A DNA stretch of 64,000 nucleotides, from contig NZ_JACHMX010000001.1 of the NCBI RefSeq assembly GCF_014205155.1, positions 6,882,001 through 6,946,000 on the forward strand, written 5' to 3'. Position numbers and translations under genes: made by a program. Shown piece after piece: positions 52,820 through 64,000 of this stretch (the stretch's first letter is position 1; every line of letters starts with the position of its first letter). The notes beneath the pieces are model-generated. The model was not told the DNA's origin and did no database searches. It saw only the letters and a list, made by a program, of their open reading frames with translations. This DNA comes from Amycolatopsis umgeniensis (GTDB taxonomy: Bacteria; Actinomycetota; Actinomycetes; Mycobacteriales; Pseudonocardiaceae).

Positions 52820-53728
52820 CTAGGTGGCGTTGCCGGTGCGGGCGACGTGATAGATCCAGTCCCGCAGCTCCGGGTCACTGGTGAAGACGTCGGGCTGGGT
52901 TCCGCAGAACCTGGGGTCGGCCGAGCGGCTGGCGGTCCCGACGAGCTGGGGGATGCCGTTGATCGTGGCCAGCGCGGGTGTCCCGGAGTCTCCGTAGCAG
53001 CTGCCGTCGGTGTCGCTGGGATTGTCGCCGCAGAATTCGCCGGCGGACAGGAACGCGGCCGCGCAGCGCGACGGCGCGGTGACACGAGTGTCGAGTTGCT
53101 GCAGGTGCCTCGGCAGTCCTGAGCGGGTGCTGTCGGGCTCGGTCACGCCCCAGCCGTATACGGAGATCGTGTCGCCACGTCGGGCGGCGTCGCGGGCGAG
53201 TTGCGCGGTCGGTTGCTGGGTCAAATGATCAAGTTTGAGCATCGCGCCATCGAAAGTCTTCTTGGGCGCGCCCTTGCCCCATTGCCAGCCGGGGTGGATC
53301 ACGATCTTGCTCACTGTGGCGGTCTCGCCACCGGCGAGCCGGTCGAGGCTGCCGACCCGGACGTGGAAGGCCTTGTCTGCGGTCGGGATCGGTGCAGGGT
53401 CGGCGTTGAACCACTGGATGGCCGTCGCTCGGGCTGTCGCTTCGGTGGGTGGGTCGGTGACGCAGTGCGCGGCGGTGAACACCCAGCCGCGGAACACCAG
53501 GGCGGCGCCGCAGGTGTGGTAGTCGACGTACTGCTCCCCGTGGTCCGGTGCGTCGTACTGCAGCGAGGTGATCCCCGGCGGCGCGATCGCGGCCGGGTGG
53601 CCACCGATCAGCGTCGGCTCGATCGGTGGCGGTGGTGTGGCGGGAACGGCCGTCGCCGTAGGGGCGGCCAGCGTGGTGGCGATGCCCACCGCCGCGGTGG
53701 CTGCGAACGACCAAGTCTTTCTGAGCAA
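52820..53728 (-). CDS. Secreted trypsin-like serine protease
   Basis: 302 residues. Signal peptide LLRKTWSFAATAAVGIATTL ending TATA, then a short propeptide. The catalytic triad is visible: His in VFTAAHCV, Asp in TFDGAMLKL and Ser in GSCYGDSGTPAL. Cys residues are paired as in the S1 family, and the pocket region before the active Ser (SDTDGSCYGDSG) suggests trypsin-like specificity. A TTG start at 53728 is preferred, as AGGAAG precedes it by eight bases and the signal peptide then starts properly. Confidence 0.87.
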   Translation of the reverse strand: MLRKTWSFAATAAVGIATTLAAPTATAVPATPPPPIEPTLIGGHPAAIAPPGITSLQYDAPDHGEQYVDYHTCGAALVFRGWVFTAAHCVTDPPTEATARATAIQWFNADPAPIPTADKAFHVRVGSLDRLAGGETATVSKIVIHPGWQWGKGAPKKTFDGAMLKLDHLTQQPTAQLARDAARRGDTISVYGWGVTEPDSTRSGLPRHLQQLDTRVTAPSRCAAAFLSAGEFCGDNPSDTDGSCYGDSGTPALATINGIPQLVGTASRSADPRFCGTQPDVFTSDPELRDWIYHVARTGNAT

Positions 53729-54336
53729 GGTGCGTCTTCCTGTCGATGAAGGGGTGTGAACCGTGCGTTGAGGAGTTGCTACCTGTGGCAGGCGGGGCAC
53801 GTCCGGGGTGTGCTAGGCCCGGCGAGTAAAGGCCCGCCCAGCTCGCCGTCTTGCCCGAACGTGCGGACGTCGTTGCTAGCGGGATCGTGGTTTTTGCTGT
53901 GTCCTCGGCTGACGAATGCGGGGAAAGCGGAGAGTCGGCTGGTCGTGATCGGCCGTAGTCCGCCGGAGGTCGCGGTCGGCTCTGGGCCAGGCCAGGTGAG
54001 GTTGTTGGTTCTCGGCCGAAATGCGTTCGGTGATACCCGCTACGGAGTCTGGGCGGGCGTTCCAGCGCCGACGTCGATGGCGGGCGCGGGCTCGCAGGGC
54101 AAGAACCGCGCCAGCCACCAGCAGGACGCCCGCGAGGTCCACATGCAGGGCCGGGTTCATCGCCAGTCCGGTTGTTTTGGGGCATCAGGCACGCATTCAG
54201 TCGCGAATCACGGGTGGTTCTGGGCTGTGTACGGCGCGGGTGCACAGGGGCTCGACGGTCCTGCACGCGCTGGGTGCGGCCGAGGGGTTGCCTAGACGGG
54301 CTTCCTGGGAGAGGGATTTGTTGTTCGCGTTGTTTT
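53729..54336. other. 608-base region between protease and phosphatase genes
   Basis: Holds one plausible small membrane protein ORF (53876-54160) and otherwise nothing I can support. Confidence 0.45.
53876..54160 (-). CDS. Possible small membrane protein
   Basis: 94 residues. One hydrophobic helix (HVDLAGVLLVAGAVLALRAR) near the N-terminus, followed by a very basic tail (RARARHRRRRWNARPDS). The ribosome site is weak. The last 40 residues are Arg/Pro-rich and may not be real coding sequence. Confidence 0.4.
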   Translation of the reverse strand: MNPALHVDLAGVLLVAGAVLALRARARHRRRRWNARPDSVAGITERISAENQQPHLAWPRADRDLRRTTADHDQPTLRFPRIRQPRTQQKPRSR

Positions 54337-55230
54337 TCACGGGAAGTCGTGGCTCAACGGTTCAGCGCCGATGTGCGTTGTGGAGGCGAGACGATCTAGG
54401 TCGGCCTTGTTGCTGCTGGGCCAAAACGAGCTTCCCCGGAGGAGGCGTAAGAGGGGCATCACGTCCTTGGACAGTCCTGGAGTGACGGCCACGGCGCAAC
54501 GGGAATGCACGGAGTGTGGAGTGGCGTCGGAGTCGAGAACGAGAGCTCCGGCCTCACGGGCGATGACGGCGCCGGCCGCGGTGTCCCAGGTGCGGTTGCC
54601 GAGCAGAACGCAGGCGTCGAGGGTTCCGTCGGCGACCCAGACCAAGTCGAGTGCGGTGGATCCGTATCGGCGAAGTCCCTGTGCGCGTGCGGTGAAGGAG
54701 CGGTCCAGGGAGGCGCACAGGACGTCACGTAGACCCGCGTCGGTACCGCTGCCGTAGTCGCCGAAACCGATCAAGGCTTTGTCCAGCCTGTCGGTGCTTG
54801 AGGGTGTGATCGGCTCGTCGTCACGAAAGGCTCCGCCACTCTCAGCGGCCGAGTACCGGTGCCCGAGAAGGGGCAGGGCGATGACCCCGAGCGCGGGTTG
54901 TCCGTTGTGGACCAGGCCGAGTGCGATCGCGCAGAGTGGGTTGCCGTGCTGGTGGTTGATCGTGCCGTCGATGGGATCGAGGACCCAGTAGGTGTCACGA
55001 TTTCCGATCGGGCCGGTCTCTTCACCAAGGAAACCTGTGTCGGCGTCGTCGTCGGTTGCCAAGAACTGGTGTACGAGCCGCTCGACGGTCTCATCGACAT
55101 CCGAAACGGGGTCGCGGTCACCTTTGTAACGGATCTGACGGGGACGGTGGCCAAGCACGTGCTCCACAGCGAGGTCCATCGCGGTGTGGGCCCTGGAGAG
55201 TGCCGACGTGAGGTCAAGCCGCAGCGCCAT
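54337..55230 (-). CDS. Inositol-monophosphatase-family phosphatase
   Basis: 297 residues. Metal-binding motifs are FLGEETG, WVLDPIDGTINHQHG and late WDTAAGAVIAREAGALV, as in the IMPase/FBPase/CysQ superfamily, which removes phosphate from inositol, sugar or nucleotide phosphates using Mg2+. The C-terminal 40 residues (RLLRGSSFWPSSNKADLDRL) extend past the usual end. It is the last gene of the queD-queE strand group, 79 bases after queE, so a role as the phosphatase in a nucleotide-derived pathway is plausible but inferred. Confidence 0.88.
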   Translation of the reverse strand: MALRLDLTSALSRAHTAMDLAVEHVLGHRPRQIRYKGDRDPVSDVDETVERLVHQFLATDDDADTGFLGEETGPIGNRDTYWVLDPIDGTINHQHGNPLCAIALGLVHNGQPALGVIALPLLGHRYSAAESGGAFRDDEPITPSSTDRLDKALIGFGDYGSGTDAGLRDVLCASLDRSFTARAQGLRRYGSTALDLVWVADGTLDACVLLGNRTWDTAAGAVIAREAGALVLDSDATPHSVHSRCAVAVTPGLSKDVMPLLRLLRGSSFWPSSNKADLDRLASTTHIGAEPLSHDFP

Positions 55231-55309: not shown

Positions 55310-56032
55310 TTAGCGGCCGCGATCGTTCTCCCACAACAGCGTGTGAAGCCGGGGAGACAGGTGCCAGCGACGCGACAGCACGGGCTCAGCCAGCAGCCGC
55401 ATCCGTGTCAGCACGGTGGAGCTGTCGGTGCCCTCCGGCATGATCCAGACGGGGTGCAGGTCGTAGGTCCCCACCAGCTCTTGGACCTCGTCCAAGTCGT
55501 CGGTCTCTTGGACAACGAACTTCCAGACGGCCTTCCTGGTGCCGGCGAAATGGCGCAGCACCGCTGGGCGAATGCGCTGATGTCGGCGCAACCCAGAATG
55601 CGCGAGCTTCGGCGAGACGTTGAATCGTGTCGCCGCCGCGGTGAGCAGGTCCGTGGGCGGGATAGTGCCGGAGGTCTCGATCTCGACTTCGGTGGCGAGG
55701 GCGCGGTCGCGGATCGCGTGCAGTAGCCGTTCCAGGGCGCGCGGTTGTAGCAACGGCTCGCCGCCTGTGATAATCAGCAGGTCGACCGGAGCGGCGGCGA
55801 GCCAGGACAGGATGTCGTCGATCGAGAGAATTCGCTGCTCGGCCCTGAGGTCGTATCGGTTCGGGTCATGGGTTTGTGGGGTGTCGCACCACGTGCACGA
55901 CAGGTGACAGCCGAAGAGGCGGATGAAGTGCGCGTACCGGCCAGTGCTCGGTCCTTCACCTTGGAAGGTGGGGCCGAAGGTTTCGTTGACCACCAGGTCG
56001 CGGTCTGGATCGGGCACAGTGGGTGGCTTCAC
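55310..56032 (-). CDS. queE: 7-carboxy-7-deazaguanine synthase (radical SAM)
   Basis: 240 residues. The start NETFGPTFQGEGPSTGRYAH matches QueE, with a C-x3-C-x2-C cluster in FGCHLSCTWCDTPQTHD, then IITGGEPLLQP and the ETSGTIPP and NVSPKL motifs. It converts 6-carboxytetrahydropterin to 7-carboxy-7-deazaguanine, the second committed step to preQ0. Its ATG overlaps the queD stop by four bases. QueC and GTP cyclohydrolase are not visible and may lie elsewhere. Confidence 0.93.
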   Translation of the reverse strand: MKPPTVPDPDRDLVVNETFGPTFQGEGPSTGRYAHFIRLFGCHLSCTWCDTPQTHDPNRYDLRAEQRILSIDDILSWLAAAPVDLLIITGGEPLLQPRALERLLHAIRDRALATEVEIETSGTIPPTDLLTAAATRFNVSPKLAHSGLRRHQRIRPAVLRHFAGTRKAVWKFVVQETDDLDEVQELVGTYDLHPVWIMPEGTDSSTVLTRMRLLAEPVLSRRWHLSPRLHTLLWENDRGR

Positions 56033-56592
56033 AGCGCGTCCGCCGGGCCGTAGGCCGCTGTGTTGAGATGCGTTTCACGGACGAATACCCGTCCGATCGA
56101 GGCTTTGGGAGCGCAGGGCAGCGCGATGAGCACGGCTTGGCTCACTCGTCGAAGCAGCACTGCTACTGCTTCGACAGTCGGCCAGGGCAAGTCGGAGGCC
56201 AGCCGTTCCTCATCGCTGACCGCCTCCCTGTCGTCGGCGCCGAAGCGAAAGACTTTGGATCCCGCGGTGTACAAAGGCAGCGCGAGCGGATCCCGGATGC
56301 CGAGCATGGTTCCGTGATCAAGGTGGGTGTCGATCCACTGCCGGACTCGGGCCTTGAGAGCGCCGAACTCCACGACTGTCCCGTCGCTGCTCAGAGCAGG
56401 AGCAGACACGGACGCCGTGACCCGCCAGGAATGGCCATGCAGGCTGGTGCACTTGCCCCGCAACTGCGGTAACCGATGCGCGGTTTCGAAAGTGTGCTTG
56501 ATGCTGATCTGATGGGCTGGCGTCGCGACAGCGGCCACCGCGAACTTCCCCTGGTCGGAGTGGATCTGCCCGTTTGCCTCCGTGTCGTGCAT
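56029..56592 (-). CDS. queD: 6-carboxy-5,6,7,8-tetrahydropterin synthase
   Basis: 187 residues. Zinc-binding His residues in KHTFETAHRLP and SLHGHSWRV, and the catalytic Cys in RGKCTSLHGH, identify the 6-pyruvoyl-tetrahydropterin synthase fold. THLDHGTML and the late VRETHLNTAAY follow the QueD pattern. It makes 6-carboxytetrahydropterin from dihydroneopterin triphosphate. The N-terminus has about 25 extra residues, so a later start is possible. It is coupled to queE. A strong stem-loop lies in its leader. Confidence 0.92.
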   Translation of the reverse strand: MHDTEANGQIHSDQGKFAVAAVATPAHQISIKHTFETAHRLPQLRGKCTSLHGHSWRVTASVSAPALSSDGTVVEFGALKARVRQWIDTHLDHGTMLGIRDPLALPLYTAGSKVFRFGADDREAVSDEERLASDLPWPTVEAVAVLLRRVSQAVLIALPCAPKASIGRVFVRETHLNTAAYGPADAL

Positions 56593-56866: not shown

Positions 56867-57271
56867 TCAGCTGCCGTAGCTGAATGAGTACGGTCTGTCT
56901 CCGATGTGTACACAGCCAGGCTGCGGACCTCCCTGCCGGCGGATCGCCGTCAGAGCCTCGGCGAGCAGGACCTCCAACTGGGCTACGGTGCGCCGCTCCT
57001 GCAGGATGACCAGGTGCGTCCGAGGCGGCTTGGCCTCACCGCCCCCGATCGAGTCGTCGACCGCGGCTTGGATCCGTGCGCAGTCCTCGAGTCCATGCTG
57101 TCGGCAGCTCCAGCGCGGCGGAAGCTCCGCATCTGCCGCGAAGGGCACGCTGAACACGTGACCGTGTGAACATTCGAACCGGGCCGTCACTCGGGCTGCG
57201 GGCTCGACGGCTTGATCAGACTCCACGCTGGCGCCGCCCCAGCGGTAACCGCGCAACACAGCTCGTGGCAT
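56867..57271 (-). CDS. RbpA-family RNA-polymerase-binding protein (accessory paralogue)
   Basis: 134 residues. The RbpA pattern is clear: a core beginning VTARFECSHGHVFSVPFAAD AELPPRWSC, then the C-terminal sigma-interaction part THLVILQERRTVAQLEVLLA EALTAIRRQ. RbpA binds sigma and the RNA polymerase beta subunit in actinomycetes and can lower rifampicin sensitivity. The zinc-ligand pattern is altered (CSHGH; CRQHG). A C-terminal tail (GGPQPGCVHIGDRPYSFSYG) is added. A housekeeping copy presumably exists elsewhere, so this one may be specialised. It starts directly at the end of the HTH gene. Confidence 0.85.
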   Translation of the reverse strand: MPRAVLRGYRWGGASVESDQAVEPAARVTARFECSHGHVFSVPFAADAELPPRWSCRQHGLEDCARIQAAVDDSIGGGEAKPPRTHLVILQERRTVAQLEVLLAEALTAIRRQGGPQPGCVHIGDRPYSFSYGS

Positions 57272-58135: not shown

Positions 58136-58300
58136 ATGGGTGTTCAGAGAAAGGCCTTCGCGGCGCGGCGTGTGGCTCCTGAACTGGTTCGAGCAAACCC
58201 GAACGCACGATCGCTGATCGCGGATTTGCTGGCCCGTGAGCGCCGCGTCGAGGTGCCCGCTCTGCGGGGTCTCGCTGTGCGAGCAGGGGTCGCGGTGTGA
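58136..58300 (+). CDS. Small protein coupled to the flavoprotein
   Basis: 54 residues: a basic first half (MGVQRKAFAARRVAPELVRA, NPNARSLIADLLARERRVEV) then PALRGLAVRAGVAV. Its stop overlaps the flavoprotein GTG start (GTGA), a strong coupling sign. The helical, Arg-rich content could bind nucleic acid or act as a partner subunit. No family is recognised. Confidence 0.6.
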   Translation: MGVQRKAFAARRVAPELVRANPNARSLIADLLARERRVEVPALRGLAVRAGVAV

Positions 58301-58845
58301 CCCCTGCTCAACGGTGTCTCTATCTGGTGGTCTCGGCAGCGCCGCCGGTGTTGCGGCTCGAGGAATTCATTCCCCGCCTGTCGGCTGATGGCTGGACGGT
58401 GTGCGTGATCGCGACACCGACGGCCGCCTCGTGGGTTGACCTCGACGCTTTGGCTGCGGAGACGGGATGTGTGACGCGGGTACACCCGCGGCCGCCTCGT
58501 CAGAAGGAGAAGTCGCTCCCGCGAGCCGACGTCATTCTTGCCGCGCCACTGACCTTCAACTCGGTGAACAAGTGGGCGGCAGGTATCAGCGATACTTTCG
58601 CCTTGGGCGTGTTCAACGAGATGCTCGGCACCGAAGTCCCCATCGTCGCGGCTCCGTGTATAAAACCCGCCCTTCGCCGCCATCCCGCGTACGCGGACAG
58701 CATCGCTCGACTGACGAAGGCCGGTGTGACGCTGCTCGACCCGGACACGATCACTACGCGCGCCGAGGACGGCCTGGCCAACTTCGACTGGTCGTACGTC
58801 GTCTCCGCCCTGCACAGCGCGGTCACGTCCGATGTGGATAGATAA
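58297..58845 (+). CDS. Flavoprotein of the HFCD (PPC decarboxylase/EpiD) family
   Basis: 182 residues. A Rossmann-like flavodoxin fold: LYLVVSAAPPVLRLEEFIPR at the N-terminus, VCVIATPTAASWVD, LPRADVILAAPLTFNSVNKW AAGISDTFALG (FMN-binding Asn/Ser region typical of the family) and EVPIVAAPCIKPAL. HFCD proteins bind FMN and oxidatively decarboxylate Cys-type substrates or act in peptide modification, as EpiD does. It is the only plus-strand enzyme amid the metabolic block and converges on the PIG-L gene. Confidence 0.85.
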   Translation: MTPAQRCLYLVVSAAPPVLRLEEFIPRLSADGWTVCVIATPTAASWVDLDALAAETGCVTRVHPRPPRQKEKSLPRADVILAAPLTFNSVNKWAAGISDTFALGVFNEMLGTEVPIVAAPCIKPALRRHPAYADSIARLTKAGVTLLDPDTITTRAEDGLANFDWSYVVSALHSAVTSDVDR

Positions 58846-58877: not shown

Positions 58878-59510
58878 TCACAAGGCAGGGGTGGCGGGGA
58901 GGCGTCCGAGTACCGGCAGCGGCACGAAGTTCTCCGCATAGTCCCTGCCGGTGCGGCTTCCCCACAGGCGTGCGAGTGTCTCGGCCATCGGCCCGAAGTG
59001 GTCGGCGATCGGCTGGGAGGCGTGCGCCGCGAGAGCACGCTGCTTTCGGTCGTAGGTATCGGTGATGTCGATGATCGTGTGCGCGGGAATAGGGCCGTCG
59101 AGGGTGAGACTGTTGTAAGAGTCGGCGGTGTAAACCCGGCGTGGATGCCCAGTGGTGATGACGACGTCGGGCAGGGCAGCCACGAGGGTTTCAGCGAGCG
59201 CGCGGTGGTCGGGGTGGACGTCGCGCAGCGGGTGGGTGATGACGACCTCGGGCCGGACGGCGAGCAGTAGTTCGCGCAGCGTCGCCATGGTGGGCCGGTC
59301 GTACTGGTTCAGCGTGGCCCCCAGGATCGCCGCGCCCGCTGCGGCTTCGGCGTCCCGCCCTGGTTCGGCGTGGTGCGGGACGGCGATGGTGACGGCGGCC
59401 GTGGAGGCGGAGCAGCGTGCGAGGGTTCCGCCGGCCCAGAGTTCGGCGTCGTCGGGGTGGGCCATCACAGTCAGCACGGACGCTGGAGAGGTGAACGGCA
59501 CGCCGCTCAC
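58878..59510 (-). CDS. PIG-L-family N-deacetylase
   Basis: 210 residues. Zinc motif AHPDDAELWAGGTLA at 17-31 and HPLRDVHPDHRALAETL near 95-112 supply the metal ligands and catalytic Asp. PIG-L enzymes remove acetyl from N-acetylglucosamine conjugates (as in mycothiol or teicoplanin synthesis). The GTG start overlaps the exonuclease stop (GTGA). It is the last gene of the coupled operon, so a glycosyltransferase in the operon may supply its GlcNAc-bearing substrate (inferred). Confidence 0.9.
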   Translation of the reverse strand: MSGVPFTSPASVLTVMAHPDDAELWAGGTLARCSASTAAVTIAVPHHAEPGRDAEAAAGAAILGATLNQYDRPTMATLRELLLAVRPEVVITHPLRDVHPDHRALAETLVAALPDVVITTGHPRRVYTADSYNSLTLDGPIPAHTIIDITDTYDRKQRALAAHASQPIADHFGPMAETLARLWGSRTGRDYAENFVPLPVLGRLPATPAL

Positions 59511-60364
59511 CAGAGCCCGAGCTTGTCGATGACGTCAGCGGGCCTGGGCAGTTCTCGCGTGGGATCACCGGTCGGGTGGTGCGGGAGCGTGAGGTCGGTG
59601 CGCATCCGGATGAGCTCGCGCCAGGCAAGTACTTGGTCCCAGGTCTCGGTGACCTTGGCCTTCCTCGAGCCGGTCAGTCGTCCGGAGTCCGGGAGCTGGT
59701 CGAGGTGCAGCCCGCCCGCCAGGAGCGTGGCCGCCGTGCCCTCGCCGATCCCTTTCACGCCAGGGATGTTGTCCGCGGGGTCGCCTTTGAGGGCACAGAA
59801 GTCGGGCCACTGCCCGGGGGTGACGTTGTAGCGTTCGGTGACCTCGGCGGGGCCGATGTGCCGCCTGCCCCGCTTCATCACGGTGTTGAGCGCGCGGACG
59901 TGCTCGTCGACGAGCTGGTAGAAGTCGCGGTCGCCGGACATGATCCAGACCCGGCGGCCGGGTTCGCGTTCTCGGGTGGTGGCGACGAGGGTGGCGATGA
60001 CGTCGTCGGCTTCGGCGGTCTCGATCTCGATCCAGGTGATGCTGTAGCCGGTCAGGGCCCGTTGGACGTGCGGGATCGCCCGCAACGGTTTGAGGGCGGC
60101 CTCGTCGATGACCCGGTTGGCTTTGTAGTCGGCGTCGCTGTCCTTGCGGTCGGCGGCGCCGTGCTCGCCGTCGAACACGACGAGGACCTCCGGCGGTTCC
60201 GGCATTTCCTCGCGGATCGCGACGCGGAGCAGGGCGAAGAACCCGAACTCGGCGGTGAGATCGCGGGTTTTGTCGCGGGAGAGGATCGCGGCGGGGAACC
60301 CGAACGCCGCGCGCCAGAGCAGGTTGTGACCGTCTACGAGGAGCAAAGGGACGCCAGCAGGCAT
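59507..60364 (-). CDS. 5'-3' exonuclease of the PolA/FEN type
   Basis: 285 residues. Metal-binding Asp motifs are LLLVDGHNLLWRAAFG, VVFDGEHGAADRKDSDADYK, AEADDVIATL and SGDRDFYQLVD. The helix-hairpin-helix is DPADNIPGVKGIGEGTAATL. It resembles the free-standing N-terminal nuclease of DNA polymerase I. Its ATG overlaps the glycosyltransferase stop (TGATG). A stand-alone nuclease inside a sugar/nucleotide operon is unexpected; it may cut nucleic acid, or its fold may have been reused. Confidence 0.9.
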   Translation of the reverse strand: MPAGVPLLLVDGHNLLWRAAFGFPAAILSRDKTRDLTAEFGFFALLRVAIREEMPEPPEVLVVFDGEHGAADRKDSDADYKANRVIDEAALKPLRAIPHVQRALTGYSITWIEIETAEADDVIATLVATTREREPGRRVWIMSGDRDFYQLVDEHVRALNTVMKRGRRHIGPAEVTERYNVTPGQWPDFCALKGDPADNIPGVKGIGEGTAATLLAGGLHLDQLPDSGRLTGSRKAKVTETWDQVLAWRELIRMRTDLTLPHHPTGDPTRELPRPADVIDKLGLW

Positions 60365-61485
60365 CACCGCACCGCCTTTACGAATGTCTCGGCGACTGTG
60401 GTGGGCAGATAGTCCCGCGAGCGGTAGTACGCAGCCCTGGATAGGTGTGCGTAGCGTACTGGATCTGCGAGGAGCTGTTCGGCGGCGCGCCAGAGACCGT
60501 GTTCGCCCCACGATCGGGGGATGACCACCCCGCCCGCGTCGTCACCAGTACCGATCAGGGAGGGCAGATTGCCCACGTCGAAGGCGACGACCGGGGTCCC
60601 GGCGCTCATGGCTTCCAGCGCGACCAGTCCGAAGGTCTCGCGCAGCGAGGGCACGATCACCACCGCGGCCTGCGCGAGCCAGGACGGCACCCGGTCCCAG
60701 TCGAGGCCGCCGCCGTGGACGGTGGCGAGCGTGAGGTGGGCCGCCGCATAGCGGCACCGGTCCAGTTCGGCCGCCTGGCCGCCGAGGGTGGCCTCGAACC
60801 CGGCCTCGCCGACGATCACTTCGACCGTGCGGTCGACCAAGCGTCCGGCGTCCAGCAAGGCCCGGACGTTCTTCTCCGGTCCGAGCCGGGCCAGGATCCG
60901 GATCGGGCCGTGCCGTCGCAGTGCCTCCCGCCGCGACTCGGGTGGTGGTGCAGGGTCGTGCAGCAGCGCGTTGGGGACGACCTGCCAGCCGCGCGTGTCG
61001 TAGCCGCGATCGCGGGCCTGGTCGAGTACCGCCCGAGACGGTGCGATGACCAGGTCGGCACGGTTCAGGGCGGGCTCGAGGTCCTGGTCGTGCCCGACGA
61101 CGTGCATGGCCAGAACCGTGCGCGCGCCGCTGATCGGTGCGGCTCTGCCGAGACCCCATAAGCCGTCGGTGTAGACGGCGACGTCGACCCGGTGCTCGCG
61201 GTACACCTCGCATAGTTCTGCGGCGAGCAGGGCGTCCTGTCCGTGGGTGCTGATCGCGTCGCGCAGTTCGTCGTCGTCGCAGGGAAAGGCGACGCCTACC
61301 GAGGCCACCCGCATCACGGTGTCGTCCTGGGCGTCGATCGGGGCGGCGGTCAGGATGAGGCTGCGGTGGCCGAGTTGGCGCAGGCCGTGCGCGAGGGCGG
61401 CGGTGGCGCGTTCGATCCCGGCCGGCGCGTTCGGGGTGTAGGAGGCCAGGACGAACGCGACGGTCAGCGGGGGCGCGCTAGACAT
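60364..61485 (-). CDS. Glycosyltransferase family 4
   Basis: 373 residues, GT-B fold. N-terminal nucleotide-sugar lobe: VAFVLASYTPNAPAGIERAT with the GIER loop. C-terminal lobe: PIRILARLGPEKNVRALLDA, then VPSLRETFGLVALEAMSAGT PVVAFDVGNLPSL, the E-x7-E donor motif. It transfers a sugar, often GlcNAc or mannose, to an unknown acceptor. It overlaps the phosphoribosyltransferase end by eight bases and the exonuclease start by one base. Together with PIG-L it suggests a GlcNAc-transfer then deacetylation pair. Confidence 0.92.
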   Translation of the reverse strand: MSSAPPLTVAFVLASYTPNAPAGIERATAALAHGLRQLGHRSLILTAAPIDAQDDTVMRVASVGVAFPCDDDELRDAISTHGQDALLAAELCEVYREHRVDVAVYTDGLWGLGRAAPISGARTVLAMHVVGHDQDLEPALNRADLVIAPSRAVLDQARDRGYDTRGWQVVPNALLHDPAPPPESRREALRRHGPIRILARLGPEKNVRALLDAGRLVDRTVEVIVGEAGFEATLGGQAAELDRCRYAAAHLTLATVHGGGLDWDRVPSWLAQAAVVIVPSLRETFGLVALEAMSAGTPVVAFDVGNLPSLIGTGDDAGGVVIPRSWGEHGLWRAAEQLLADPVRYAHLSRAAYYRSRDYLPTTVAETFVKAVR

Positions 61486-62041
61486 GGCGGAGGACCTTCC
61501 TGGGCGGCGGCAGCGGTGTGGTGTCGTTGTCGGCGGGTGGCTGTTCCCAGGGGAATACGACCCAATCCGAGACGGTCCAGATCGAGTAGTCCGGCAGCGT
61601 GGTCGCCCCGGTGTTGAGGCACAGGACCGCGGTCAGGACCTGGGCGTCCGGGCCGAGCAAAGGGGCGAGGTCGTCATGGGCGCGGCGCAGGGTGGCGCCG
61701 CTGCCGCAGATGTCGTCCACCACCAGCACACGGCCCTTGAGCCGTTGACCGTTGAGGGCGCGGGTCAGCGGGCCGAGATCGAGGGACACCTTGCCGGTTG
61801 CCTGCTGGTAGGCGCCATCGCTGGTGTTGTGGCGGGCACGGACGATGCGTGCGTTCATGCCCAGGGTGGTGGCGATGAGGTGGGCGGGCGAGATACCACC
61901 GTTGGCGAGGCCGATGACGCGCTCGACCGATGAGTGATCACGCAGGATCGCGTCGGTCAGGAGCGCGGTGGCGTCGCGGAGAGTCTCTGGTGTCACGCGC
62001 CAGATCTGGTGGTGTTCGAAGTCGCGGTGTGCTGTGGTCAT
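61478..62041 (-). CDS. Purine-type phosphoribosyltransferase
   Basis: 187 residues. The PRPP motif is RVLVVDDICGSGATLRRAHD near 104-123. ERVIGLANGGISPAHLIATT forms the N-terminal pyrophosphate loop. The late VSDWVVFPWEQP is characteristic of xanthine/guanine/hypoxanthine PRT relatives. It would attach ribose-5-phosphate to a purine-like base, possibly a 7-deazapurine given queD/queE nearby (inferred). AAGGAAT precedes the ATG at 62041, 14 bases after the XRE gene. Confidence 0.9.
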   Translation of the reverse strand: MTTAHRDFEHHQIWRVTPETLRDATALLTDAILRDHSSVERVIGLANGGISPAHLIATTLGMNARIVRARHNTSDGAYQQATGKVSLDLGPLTRALNGQRLKGRVLVVDDICGSGATLRRAHDDLAPLLGPDAQVLTAVLCLNTGATTLPDYSIWTVSDWVVFPWEQPPADNDTTPLPPPRKVLRHV

Positions 62042-62055
62042 TCGCGGTGTATTCC

Positions 62056-62598
62056 TTACAAAGCGGGGGATAGCGCGGCAGCGAGCTGGGACCCTCGGTC
62101 GTGGGCGGCACGGAGCTCTTGCAGGGCTTGCACGAGGTCGTACTCGGTGGTCTCGGCGATGCTGGCCATCGCCGACAGCGCGGTGGCGTCGAGCTCTTCG
62201 ACCAGGGCCCGCTTTGCCGCCGGGGACTGCTGGATCCGGACCCGCGCCCATTGCCGGAGAGACCGCAACCTGGGATCAGTGGTGTGCGCGAGGCCAAGGA
62301 GGTCGACCGTGATGCGAGTGCCGTAGTGGCCGCTGAAGGCGAGGGTGGTTGCGCTGAGGAGTAGCTCGTCTGGTTGCTTGTTCAGCACGGCGCATACTTC
62401 GATCAGCCGCTCGACGGATATCCGGCGCGTGCCGAGTTCATAGCTGGCGAGGGTTTGCACGGAGAGGTCGACTTCGTTGGCGCCCATCGCGGCGCCCATC
62501 TGTTTGCGGGTCCAGCCGCGTTCTCTCCGTGCGGAACGCAGCAATTCGCCCAGGGCGTGCGCGAACTGGTCGAGCTGTTCGCTCGTAGGTGTGTTCAT
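62056..62598 (-). CDS. XRE-family regulator inside the operon
   Basis: 180 residues. The N-terminal HTH (ALGELLRSARRERGWTRKQM GAAMGANEVDLSVQTLASYE LGTRRISVERL) has a BldD-like layout. The C-terminal half is helical with DLVQALQELRAAHDRGSQLA, perhaps a dimer or ligand domain. It sits in the middle of the coupled operon, so it probably regulates it. Its ATG overlaps the stop of the 24-codon ORF. Confidence 0.9.
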   Translation of the reverse strand: MNTPTSEQLDQFAHALGELLRSARRERGWTRKQMGAAMGANEVDLSVQTLASYELGTRRISVERLIEVCAVLNKQPDELLLSATTLAFSGHYGTRITVDLLGLAHTTDPRLRSLRQWARVRIQQSPAAKRALVEELDATALSAMASIAETTEYDLVQALQELRAAHDRGSQLAAALSPAL

Positions 62599-62669
62599 GG
62601 CCTGTCCTCCGTAGCGGGGCGGGTGCTGGCGAGCCAGGCAGTTTCGACGTCGTCCGCGGAGTCGCTCAT
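62595..62669 (-). CDS. 24-residue ORF coupled at both ends (radical SAM to XRE)
   Basis: The ATG overlaps the radical SAM stop (ATGA, 62669-62666) and the TGA overlaps the XRE start (ATGA, 62598-62595). Such exact junctions on both sides argue for translation. The peptide starts MSDSADDVETAWLAS and ends TEDRP: acidic, one Trp, no signal peptide. It sits beside a radical SAM enzyme like a small RiPP precursor, but it could equally be a leader for the XRE gene, whose ribosome site lies in its last codons. Confidence 0.55.
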   Translation of the reverse strand: MSDSADDVETAWLASTRPATEDRP

Positions 62670-63643
62670 GCCGAGCCGTCCCGTGTGGTCAGTGCGAGAT
62701 CGCTGGCCGTGGACAGGGCGCGGAGGGAGCTGATGGCGTGTGCGCTCGGCTGGTTGCGCCAGATCTGGCCGTCGGCGCGGATCACTGTGAAGCCGCCGGC
62801 CGCCTCGCGAGTACGCAGACGTACGGGTACGGCCGCGGTGGTGCTCAGTTCGGCGAGGAGTGCGAGAGCTTCGTCATCGGTCAGCTGTTCGGTTCCGGCC
62901 AGGGCTGTGCCTTCTCCGATGGGAAGCATCTGCAGGAACGTCACCCCGCTCACTCCGAGGGTGGCGGCCAGGTCAACCATCGCTCGGATGCCGGCCAGGG
63001 CCGTGGAACGCAGAAGCACGGCCTGAATCTGCGTGGGGATGCCCTGGGTGATCGCCGCGCGGATTCCGGCGATGGCGTGATCGAAACTGCCTGCGCCGCG
63101 CCACCGGTCGTGGTGTTCGGCGTCCGGTCCGTCCAGGCTCACCCGTACGGCGTCCACACGAGTGGCCAGGGCTTCGGCGCGGCGGGCCAGGTGGGTTCCG
63201 TTGGTCGTCACGCTGACGGCGCAGCCGCCCGCGACGAGCACGTCGACTAGTTCGGGCAGGTCGCGCAGCAGCAGCGGTTCGCCGCCGGAGATGTCCACGC
63301 CAAGGACTGTGGATTCGGCGAGCAGGTTCGCGATGCGGTAGCGCTCTGCCCGGCCGAGCTCGAGGATGGACTTGTCATCCAGGCAGTACGGGCAGGTCAG
63401 GTTGCAGCGCACCAGGGGTGACCAGCACACGCTGATCGGCACGTCCGTTTGGACGGCTGCCGGGTGGATTTCAGTCCAGGACGCGACGTCGGTGCCGGGC
63501 AAGCGGACACGTCCCGAGTCGAGCGTGAGACCGGCGTGGTGGGTCAGGCCGGTGAGCGGATCATGGACGACGCTCTCGTTGCCGTGCTTTCGCGTCGCGA
63601 AGGTACGCATCGTGGTGGTCATCGCCGGGGTTGACGGGGTCAT
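62666..63643 (-). CDS. Radical SAM enzyme of the MoaA/PqqE-like type
   Basis: 325 residues. The [4Fe-4S] motif is C-x3-C-x2-C in VRCNLTCPYCLDDKS near 88. ISGGEPLLLRDLPELVDVLV (GGE motif) and VRVSLDGPDAEHHDRWRGAG follow. A leading 65-residue beta-rich segment (TFATRKHGNESVVHDPLTGL) precedes the barrel, as in peptide-modifying members with a peptide-binding domain. No Cys-rich SPASM tail is seen. The ATG at 63643 overlaps the glycosyltransferase stop. The substrate could be a peptide, sugar or nucleotide. Confidence 0.9.
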   Translation of the reverse strand: MTPSTPAMTTTMRTFATRKHGNESVVHDPLTGLTHHAGLTLDSGRVRLPGTDVASWTEIHPAAVQTDVPISVCWSPLVRCNLTCPYCLDDKSILELGRAERYRIANLLAESTVLGVDISGGEPLLLRDLPELVDVLVAGGCAVSVTTNGTHLARRAEALATRVDAVRVSLDGPDAEHHDRWRGAGSFDHAIAGIRAAITQGIPTQIQAVLLRSTALAGIRAMVDLAATLGVSGVTFLQMLPIGEGTALAGTEQLTDDEALALLAELSTTAAVPVRLRTREAAGGFTVIRADGQIWRNQPSAHAISSLRALSTASDLALTTRDGSA

Positions 63644-64000
63644 CGCAGTACCTCGCAGGAGTGCAGCAGTTCGGTCATGTCGGCTGTGAATGCTTGGGAG
63701 CGGCCGGTGGGGGCGGGCCGCCGCATGAGGTTCCAGTAATGGGCGAGGGTGTCTGGCCAGCTGGCGAGTTTGCGTTGCCACTGCTGGTCGGCGTCCGGGG
63801 GGTCGAGGTGGAACCCGACGGCCTGCCGGAGCGGGATGACCAGCAGTCCGTCCGCGATCAGGCACGCGCCGAGGTAGGTGTCTTCCATGCCCCAGCCGAT
63901 TCGCCCGAACTCGGGGTCGAACCCTCCGACGTTGAGCACGGCGGTGCGGGGAACGGCGACCAGGGCGGTGACGACCATGCGGGGGAGGTCCCAGTCGACA
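63640..64000 (-). CDS. Glycosyltransferase family 2/7-type, C-terminal part (cut by the window edge)
   Basis: The frame is open to base 64000 (…VDWDLPRMVVTALVAVPRTA…). VLNVGGFDPEFGRIGWGMED TYLGACLIADGL is the galactosyltransferase-like C-terminal motif with the WG-x-ED acidic pair. The ending is helical. The N-terminal nucleotide-sugar domain lies outside. It is the first visible gene of the coupled operon. Confidence 0.85.
   Translation of the reverse strand, partial: VDWDLPRMVVTALVAVPRTAVLNVGGFDPEFGRIGWGMEDTYLGACLIADGLLVIPLRQAVGFHLDPPDADQQWQRKLASWPDTLAHYWNLMRRPAPTGRSQAFTADMTELLHSCEVLR

Follow-up and report, generated by a model that had tools for sequence, protein, structure and literature searches.

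Genomic organization

The window analysed here, a stretch of 64,000 nucleotides of Amycolatopsis umgeniensis (G000:C1:6882001–6946000, from a single-contig genome of 9.2 Mb), ends within a leftwards-transcribed operon encoding two glycosyltransferases (GT2 and GT4), a radical SAM (rSAM) protein, a phosphoribosyltransferase (PRT), a 5′-3′ exonuclease and a PIG-L family deacetylase (Table 1). Beyond the right edge of the window the operon contains a remodelled reverse transcriptase (RT) and a conserved folded RNA, together with QueC, a DUF6884 protein and an FGE-like protein, all of which go beyond the original prediction for this locus.

The eight genes within the window lie end to end as that prediction had described, and Pfam searches confirm their domains. 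Six of the seven junctions overlap by 1–8 nt (4 nt each for GT2/rSAM, rSAM/micro-ORF, micro-ORF/XRE and exonuclease/PIG-L, 8 nt for PRT/GT4 and 1 nt for GT4/exonuclease; ORF, open reading frame), and the sole gap is one of 14 nt between XRE and PRT. The operon had been thought to run off the right edge, and sequence fetched rightward (L002, G000:C1:6938000–6957900; L002 position equals window position minus 55999) bears this out. The GT2 gene extends to about window position 64716 (extrapolated) and five further genes, DUF6884, FGE-like, RT, QueC and P1, lie upstream of it in the same orientation, with hardly any space between them. Genes for QueD, a QueE-type protein and an inositol monophosphatase are located 2–5 kb downstream of the operon.

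Table 1. Features of the operon and its surroundings, in the order of transcription of the operon. Positions are those of the window unless given for L002; locus counts refer to the 43-locus survey.
Feature	Position	Strand	Evidence and remarks
P1, 160 aa, family unassigned by Pfam	L002 11419–11901	-	Pfam: no match
QueC	L002 10712–11416	-	PF06508 E=2e-66
Structured RNA (model R1), within RT frame	L002 10554–10669	-	covariation, covariance model
Remodelled RT	L002 9718–10698	-	RVT_1, PF00078 E=9e-11
FGE-like protein (FGE-sulfatase-like), 185 aa	L002 9157–9714	-	PF03781 E=5e-17
DUF6884 (DpdC-like)	L002 8672–9160	-	PF21818 E=5e-11, 43.4 bits (cut-off 30)
GT2 glycosyltransferase	63640–64000, on to about 64716 (L002 7641–8717)	-	Pfam
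Radical SAM protein, MoaA/viperin-like	62666–63643	-	PF04055 E=7e-18; MoaA 91 bits, below cut-off; PADLOC pVip 65.5 bits
Micro-ORF, 24 codons, 4-nt overlaps on both sides	62595–62669	-	match only in one near relative
XRE-type DNA-binding protein, accessory	62056–62598	-	Pfam; 10/43 loci
Purine-type phosphoribosyltransferase (PRT)	61478–62041	-	PF00156 E=7e-12; 43/43 loci
GT4 glycosyltransferase	60364–61485	-	PF13692 E=9e-22; PF20706 GT4-conflict 41 bits (cut-off 26)
5′-3′ exonuclease (FEN-like, PolA N-terminal type)	59507–60364	-	PF02739 E=9e-35, PF01367 E=6e-18
PIG-L family deacetylase, last operon gene	58878–59510	-	PF02585 E=4e-12; nearest NCBIfam BshB1 59.7 bits, below cut-off
Flavoprotein gene facing the operon	58297–58845	+	match in 11/45 stretches (window and L002, both of this genome, counted)
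QueD (PTPS family), 2.3 kb downstream of PIG-L	56029–56592	-	PF01242 E=2e-21
QueE-type radical SAM, 4-nt overlap with QueD	55310–56032	-	Pfam
Inositol monophosphatase family protein	54337–55230	-	Pfam; adjoins QueE in G002 and G020 too

Conservation and distribution

An RT search of 80 genomes of the genus (cut-off E≤1e-10) matched 20, of which eight, including A. umgeniensis, carry orthologs (at least 67% identity); the remaining 12 have only other RTs of 38% identity or less. Comparison of gene order across actinomycetes, which had been proposed as a check, shows the same order in all eight genus genomes with an RT ortholog: P1-QueC-RT-FGE-DUF6884-GT2-rSAM-(XRE)-PRT-GT4-exonuclease-PIG-L. 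This excludes the refuting case of a gene order that is conserved nowhere. The XRE gene is missing from G074, G003 and G018, and the last two count for little more than one because their match percentages are identical. An independent search with the FGE-like protein (E≤1e-15) returned exactly the same eight of 80 genomes, and PRT was found in these eight with a weaker relative in G075. The position of the locus varies widely (e.g. in G002 it lies about 13 kb short of the end of a 9.81-Mb contig, and in G020 at 374 kb).

The PRT relative of G075 (L153) is situated in a different, sugar-type neighbourhood without RT or RNA (best RNA score 17 bits). This region (L153:12170–16502) also has a radical SAM match and, by eye, methyltransferase-like and aminotransferase-like ORFs, and is perhaps an RT-free cousin pathway.

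A pattern scan of contigs revealed 20 loci in Amycolatopsis, Sciscionella, Actinosynnema, Crossiella, Saccharothrix, Saccharomonospora, Actinokineospora, Saccharopolyspora and Prauserella; distant relatives are beyond its reach because two short patterns were used. A protein search scoring 8000 candidates gave 315 proteins at E≤1e-20, and Kitasatospora, Micromonospora, Streptomyces and Microbispora are among the names of the best 120 of these. With cluster-type RTs taken as those at E≤1e-87 (the query alignments include some of the counted sequences), they are present in 9 of 397 genomes of the order, 4 of 394 of the class, and 5 of 225 and 8 of 229 in two other orders. Two further matches in the order sample (2e-35 and 2e-32) are other RTs, and in one of the other-order samples the weakest cluster RT, at 6e-93, is well separated from 2e-41, the value of the best other RT.

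Gene content was counted by tblastn match, intact or not, in 43 loci, all of them found through the RT, so that the RT count of 43 is circular. FGE, DUF6884 and PRT also match in all 43, GT4 in 42, and PIG-L, exonuclease and QueC in 41 each; GT2 and rSAM match in 38, being missed only in the five type II loci described below. QueD (28), QueE (25), P1 (24), XRE (10), FolE (10) and WbqC (5) are less frequent, the QueD and QueE counts being lower bounds because many of the fetched stretches end near the cluster. Of the seven missing cells among GT4, PIG-L, exonuclease and QueC, four lie beyond a contig end (three in L065, one in L067) and three are true non-finds, the exonuclease and PIG-L in L061 and QueC in G684; the GT4 match of L061 spans only 56 of 373 residues. 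The exonuclease is among the best-conserved cluster genes, at 70–95% identity where found, except in L064 (57%). The micro-ORF and XRE are weak members of the gene set; the former matches in one of 20 loci by tblastn, for which a 24-residue query has little power. The operon and its conservation are almost certainly real.

Some genomes have more than one cluster. Two to three diverged copies are present in Sciscionella marina (L049, L059, L061) and in Saccharomonospora sp. CUA-673 (L057, L065), and two of the Sciscionella copies lie about 70 kb apart on one contig. In L065, L066, L049, L050, L146 (G1047), L147 (G1138) and L061 the RT, GT2, PRT or XRE matches are in pieces, contain a stop or are short; some copies may thus be broken or mis-assembled, L061 also being without the last genes.

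Two architectures share one core. Type I, in 38 of 43 loci, is organized as QueC-(QueD-QueE)-RT-FGE-DUF6884-GT2-rSAM-PRT-GT4-exonuclease-PIG-L. Type II (L143–L146) reads (FolE)-QueC-QueD-QueE-FGE-DUF6884-PRT-GT4-PIG-L-WbqC-RT-GT-exonuclease, and G684 (L094/L152) is a rearranged version of it; the radical SAM gene is absent from all five type II clusters. The FolE gene precedes the RNA in L151 and G684. Because the compact versions read QueC-QueD-QueE-RT as one run (L064, L092, L093, L095–L097 and others), the pathway appears to start from 7-cyano-7-deazaguanine (preQ0). A DegT-type gene followed by a Gfo/Idh/MocA-type gene lies after PIG-L in 11 of 45 stretches, as checked with Pfam in L150 and L093; the survey of neighbours was swamped by antisense ORFs, and only these two families were taken from it and re-checked.

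A remodelled reverse transcriptase

A 259-residue part of the reverse TRANSCRIPTASE (RT) is predicted with confidence by AlphaFold to adopt an RT fold (pLDDT 91.8). In a structure search the lowest E-values were to group II intron RT domains of Roseburia and Eubacterium, and the highest TM score was 0.86, to the GsI-IIC RT (258 columns, 30% identity), followed by the RTs of G2L4, diversity-generating retroelements (DGRs) and DRT9. Profile matches (PADLOC, PHROGs, NCBIfam) are mainly to general or group II RTs. The protein ends after motif E and thus lacks a thumb or maturase region; with no maturase/X domain and no Rfam match of an intron RNA to the element, it is not a group II intron protein in the usual sense. 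Neither does it belong among the UG/DRT classes, whose best PADLOC models score at most 26 bits, compared with 60 bits for the RT-Cas1 model and 125 bits for a generic RT model.

The catalytic pocket was compared in a single alignment of 45 cluster RTs, which include some near-duplicates and count L002 twice, with 25 group-II-type RTs that came out of the same searches; in most motifs, one of these 25 failed to align. The names of the motifs and the roles of their residues in contacting nucleotide or metal are those of RT structures. Four positions distinguish the two sets. The fingers Arg is present in 0/45 cluster RTs and 24/24 controls, as is the steric-gate Phe of motif A (Ser in 40 and Thr in 5 of the cluster RTs); the Gln of the motif B PQG is found in 0/45 and 24/25 respectively; and the second Asp of the motif C YADD occurs in 1/44 cluster RTs, where 43 have Asn (FADN), compared with 24/24 controls. 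The motif A Asp (45/45), the first Asp of motif C (44/44) and the motif D Lys (44/44) are all kept. The RT therefore has the metal-binding Asp expected of an active canonical RT and is without YXDD, gate, PQG and fingers Arg. Since the gate and the triphosphate and template contacts are lost while the metal site is retained, we infer an enzyme that has given up ordinary deoxynucleoside triphosphates rather than simple decay. The RT core has a dN/dS-like ratio of 0.23.

A conserved structured RNA

The first ~200 nt of the RT reading frame contain blocks that are conserved at all three codon positions; mean variation at the three positions is 0.84, 0.82 and 1.02 bits in this leader and 0.65, 0.46 and 1.03 bits just after it. 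This region holds an RNA of ~116 nt, for which RNAalifold predicts 22 pairs from 25 copies, 10 of them with two-sided compensatory changes (7.2 in shuffled alignments, with 8/500 reaching this number). The covariation score is 0.271; shuffling gives 0.127±0.011, with 0/500 reaching the observed value, and slid structures do not exceed 0.078. Of all cells, 93.6% are paired (85.2% in shuffles). Twelve copies outside the model (five of them type II) that were aligned and folded separately have the same layout with a longer outer stem, and show two-sided changes in 16 of 28 pairs.

A covariance model built from the 25 copies matched 21 of 25 stretches (20 genomes), all of them clusters, at 46–121 bits, and the four non-cluster stretches (L100, L101, L003 and the window) scored 22 bits at best. 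Twelve of the 20 matched genomes are outside the model and are not near-duplicates. In the class sample, scanned with stricter filters that lose weak matches, the RNA was found in exactly the 4 of 394 genomes with the RT, three of them in the model and one (G684) outside it. Searches of Rfam with four copies (one of them twice) give nothing for the element at E≤1, the one 17-bit match being on the other strand beside it, and there is no second copy of the RNA in the genome (next match E=0.1 over 33 bases).

In the two sets of 15 and 25 copies compared, the RNA heads the first tailoring gene, which is the RT in type I and FGE in type II. The RT frame is open across it in 25/25 copies, with 0 stops compared with 25 and 34 in the other frames, and insertions and deletions keep the frame, lengths differing by multiples of three. 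The frame continues into FGE in the five type II copies, and in copies with QueE just upstream (e.g. L143–L145, L148) a GTG start overlaps the QueE stop. A plain non-coding RNA upstream of a shorter RT is partly rejected by these features, and the element looks both read through and structured. In a comparison of 14 pairs that share sequences, synonymous change is lower in the leader than in the RT core (0.212 and 0.342) and nonsynonymous change is higher (0.138 and 0.079), suggesting that constraint acts on the RNA at the level of nucleotides, within a region whose peptide is weakly constrained.

Relationship to known systems

The operon resembles the pyrrolopyrimidine clusters for toyocamycin/sangivamycin (toy), tubercidin (tub) and huimycin (hui), in which, according to the portions of PMC7439116 and PMC12648386 covered, QueD/QueE/QueC-type preQ0 genes are likewise followed by tailoring genes; the huimycin cluster also shares a glycosyltransferase with the operon, and a nitrile hydratase converts toyocamycin to the amide of sangivamycin. 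Those portions contain no mention of an RT, 5′-3′ nuclease, DUF6884, FGE or structured RNA such as are present here, and the term 'reverse transcriptase' has 0 occurrences in the main texts of both papers.

The dpd islands also have preQ0 genes and a DUF6884/DpdC protein in common with the operon (excerpts of PMC11888242). Among the 20 proteins of the window genome profiled here with Pfam there is no TGT/DpdA, DpdB, helicase or PLD, and sugar enzymes are present instead. The RT is similar in sequence and predicted fold to those of group II introns and G2L (TM 0.86 to GsI-IIC, 0.67–0.84 to G2L4), and differs from them in ending after motif E, in having FADN for YADD and a replaced pocket, and in lacking an intron RNA match. 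Retrons and DRT systems similarly have a conserved structured RNA travelling with an RT gene, and the TM score to the DRT9 RT is up to 0.78. In the operon, however, a reading frame encloses the RNA, which in most type II loci is separated from the RT by about 4 kb; the companion genes encode biosynthetic enzymes, and the TM score to the retron Ec86 RT is about 0.60. The pairing of a GT4 glycosyltransferase with a PIG-L deacetylase recalls MshA/MshB and BshA/BshB of mycothiol and bacillithiol biosynthesis, to both of which there is weak similarity, although all scores are far below the curated cut-offs; the acceptor here is presumably a deazaguanine nucleotide.

The original prediction knew of no described pathway with this set of genes, and no characterised cluster with it was recognised among the open-access papers listed. 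Likewise, at the level of titles, term counts and abstract starts, none of the papers listed was recognisable as joining an RT with preQ0 biosynthesis. A survey that distinguishes 17 groups of bacterial RTs (PMC4244168) describes, in the passages covered, neither an RT lacking the second Asp of motif C nor one in a biosynthetic setting.

Predicted product and pathway

A modified nucleoside or glycosylated small molecule had been suggested as the product from the two glycosyltransferases, deacetylase, PRT and radical SAM gene, and this fits the enlarged gene set, with its preQ0 genes, DpdC-domain protein and the genes of sugar aminotransferase and dehydrogenase type that 11 of 45 stretches contain. 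As in 7-deazapurine clusters, preQ0 genes lie in or beside the cluster (QueC in 41/43 loci, QueD in 28, QueE in 25), and enzymes predicted to join base and sugar are nearly constant (PRT 43/43, GT4 42/43; substrates predicted). We favour, at a probability of roughly 0.52, a specialised-metabolite operon for an aminosugar-7-deazaguanine nucleoside or nucleotide with a repurposed RT–RNA module. Its parts differ in strength: a deazaguanine-linked metabolite is likely, and the chances that the RT and the RNA work together are about evenly divided.

In the proposed pathway, QueD, QueE and QueC would produce preQ0 from a GTP-derived pterin; FolE would provide the starting step, its gene being present in 10 of 43 stretches and otherwise presumably elsewhere in the genome. 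The most likely role of DUF6884 is hydration or another transformation of the nitrile, in keeping with the action of DpdC on DNA. DpdC is described as an amidohydrolase (PMC6884629) and DUF6884 as the dpdC domain (PMC11888242), and the CxxxK and LSAxxG motifs given for DpdC/DUF6884 in the part of PMC11701544 covered are represented here by CSRRK and LSGAHG. PRT would then add ribose-5-phosphate to give a nucleotide, GT4 an N-acetylhexosamine-type sugar, and PIG-L would deacetylate the latter. In type I clusters GT2 would add a second unit and the MoaA/viperin-like radical SAM enzyme would remodel the product, and in type II clusters WbqC and the second glycosyltransferase would complete it; an amino sugar may be added in those lineages that have the sugar aminotransferase and dehydrogenase.

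The RT would be a domesticated group-II-type enzyme with a rebuilt nucleotide pocket and a retained metal site. As a ribonucleoprotein with the leader RNA it could admit or process a deazaguanine nucleotide, or control translation of the tailoring genes, and the 5′-3′ nuclease would remove or release what the RT makes. A more specific and distinctly speculative version, which we consider unlikely, makes the RT palm and leader RNA an RNA-dependent enzyme of secondary metabolism with a Ser gate and an FADN metal site; the RNA would be the template, primer or carrier on which the RT polymerises or transfers a 7-deazaguanine (ribo)nucleotide, and glycosylation would follow once the nuclease has freed the finished nucleotide.

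Two further ideas were dropped. The micro-ORF as precursor of a ribosomally synthesized and post-translationally modified peptide beside the radical SAM gene is at odds with its match in one of 20 loci. A peptidyl-nucleotide product was suggested by an MccF-like Peptidase_S66 gene (LD-carboxypeptidase family; L150:16808–17755, + strand) immediately downstream of the type I cluster of L150; the gene is present in only one of 45 stretches.

Alternative explanations

Several observations weigh against the favoured pathway. The RT may be catalytically dead, judging from the loss of four pocket contacts, and at least four loci have an RT gene that seems to be broken or mis-assembled (L065 and L066, where it is in pieces; G1047, with an in-frame TAG; and G1138, whose match stops short of motif C). 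The role of the RNA may be simply one of regulation in cis: its region is translated in the RT or FGE frame, the leader retains some protein-level constraint (a ratio of 0.65 compared with 0.23 in the RT core), and in type II clusters it precedes FGE, with the RT about 4 kb away (in G684, about 1.7 kb). Further pair types are not above shuffles (157/500), and single-copy folds are not uniformly better than shuffles (z of −0.5 to −4.0, six copies). Because the RNA and the RT each co-occur with the whole core, co-occurrence singles out no partnership between them. Two profile matches lean towards defence (GT4-conflict, 41 bits; pVip, 65.5 bits), and no exporter or resistance gene was identified as a constant member, no gene-by-gene look having been made. 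Finally, the product and the role of the RT are predictions from the genes.

The best-surviving alternative, which we regard as possible and clearly less probable than the pathway above, is a metabolite operon in which the RNA is a riboswitch or attenuator, or in which a non-catalytic RT binds this RNA and sets translation of the tailoring genes. Group II intron proteins have been reported to regulate translation on their own mRNA. Such a cis-regulatory role is suggested by the RNA heading the first tailoring gene, even where the RT is about 4 kb away, and belonging to the open reading frame of an mRNA, and a non-catalytic one by the loss of the canonical RT contacts. Yet none of 44–45 sequences departs from the two metal-binding Asps or the Lys of motif D, which is hard to explain in a dead enzyme, and a general preQ0 sensor would not be expected to be confined to the cluster, as the RNA is among the 394 class genomes under the stricter filters.

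A defence or nucleic-acid-modifying system had been offered as an equal alternative on the basis of the nuclease and XRE genes, and would act on invading nucleic acid in the manner of Dpd or DRT. The nuclease is now joined by the RT, the structured RNA and the dpdC domain of DUF6884, a combination of RT, RNA and nuclease that resembles DRT and retron systems; patchy distribution and variable chromosomal position also agree. Reuse of QueC-family proteins against phage is described in a 2026 paper (PMC13329287), in the accessible text of which the term 'reverse transcriptase' has no occurrence. Among individual proteins, GT4 is above the Pfam GT4-conflict cut-off, the radical SAM protein matches PADLOC pVip (65.5 bits, E=1e-18) and DUF6884 matches PADLOC PDC-M57A at 28.9 bits. 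On the other side, the NCBIfam viperin score is 43 bits against a cut-off of 180, and MoaA scores higher at 91 bits; no TGT/DpdA-type enzyme is present among the 20 proteins profiled; the UG/DRT models remain far behind the generic RT model; and two glycosyltransferases, PIG-L and the sugar aminotransferase/dehydrogenase-type genes are metabolite-like. We therefore consider defence unlikely.

It is very improbable that an ordinary deazapurine-nucleoside cluster carries the RT and RNA as passengers from a decayed mobile element. The closeness of the RT profile to group II intron RTs and the broken appearance of some copies would agree with this, but the independent FGE search recovered the same 8/80 genomes (the RT count of 43/43 being circular), the RT core has a dN/dS-like ratio of 0.23, and the RNA is present in all 20 cluster genomes tested. 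A DGR with the FGE-like protein as target, suggested by the adjacency of RT and FGE (the FGE fold is a common DGR target fold), is most improbable as there are no template/variable or FGE-RT region repeats among the 20 of 36 direct-repeat families listed, the RNA occurs once in the genome, the C-terminus of FGE shows high conservation and no hypervariability in the eight genus genomes, and the RT lacks YADD.

Implications

To our knowledge no RT has a role in small-molecule biosynthesis. If the favoured interpretation is right, an RT and a structured RNA have been drafted into such a pathway, and aminosugar-deazaguanine compounds of an undescribed class may come to light; the RNA-dependent version, if true, would represent RNA-templated or RNA-carried natural-product biosynthesis. 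Should the element prove only regulatory, it is still a folded RNA that covaries clearly and lacks an Rfam match, and the RT offers a natural test of which catalytic residues are dispensable. The clusters and close RT relatives span many named genera, so strains for testing should be available in public collections.

Neighbouring genes

Several genes recur around the operon. QueD also lies downstream of the operon in G002, G020 and, at a distance of about 8.5 kb, G063. P1 adjoins QueC in the loci of the genus and in most of the further loci of the 20-locus survey; in L057, L059–L061 and L066 there is only a weak P1 relative, 5–7 kb upstream. Between PIG-L and QueD the window contains an RbpA-family (RNA polymerase-binding) gene (56867–57271, − strand), and RbpA-like genes are near the cluster again in G002, G020 and G205. 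A trypsin-family protease gene (52820–53800, − strand) follows the inositol monophosphatase gene, as it does in G020. XRE-TPR regulators (e.g. L002:13938–15230, + strand) recur around Pseudonocardiaceae clusters, in some with the facing flavoprotein gene, which suggests a shared local regulatory set.

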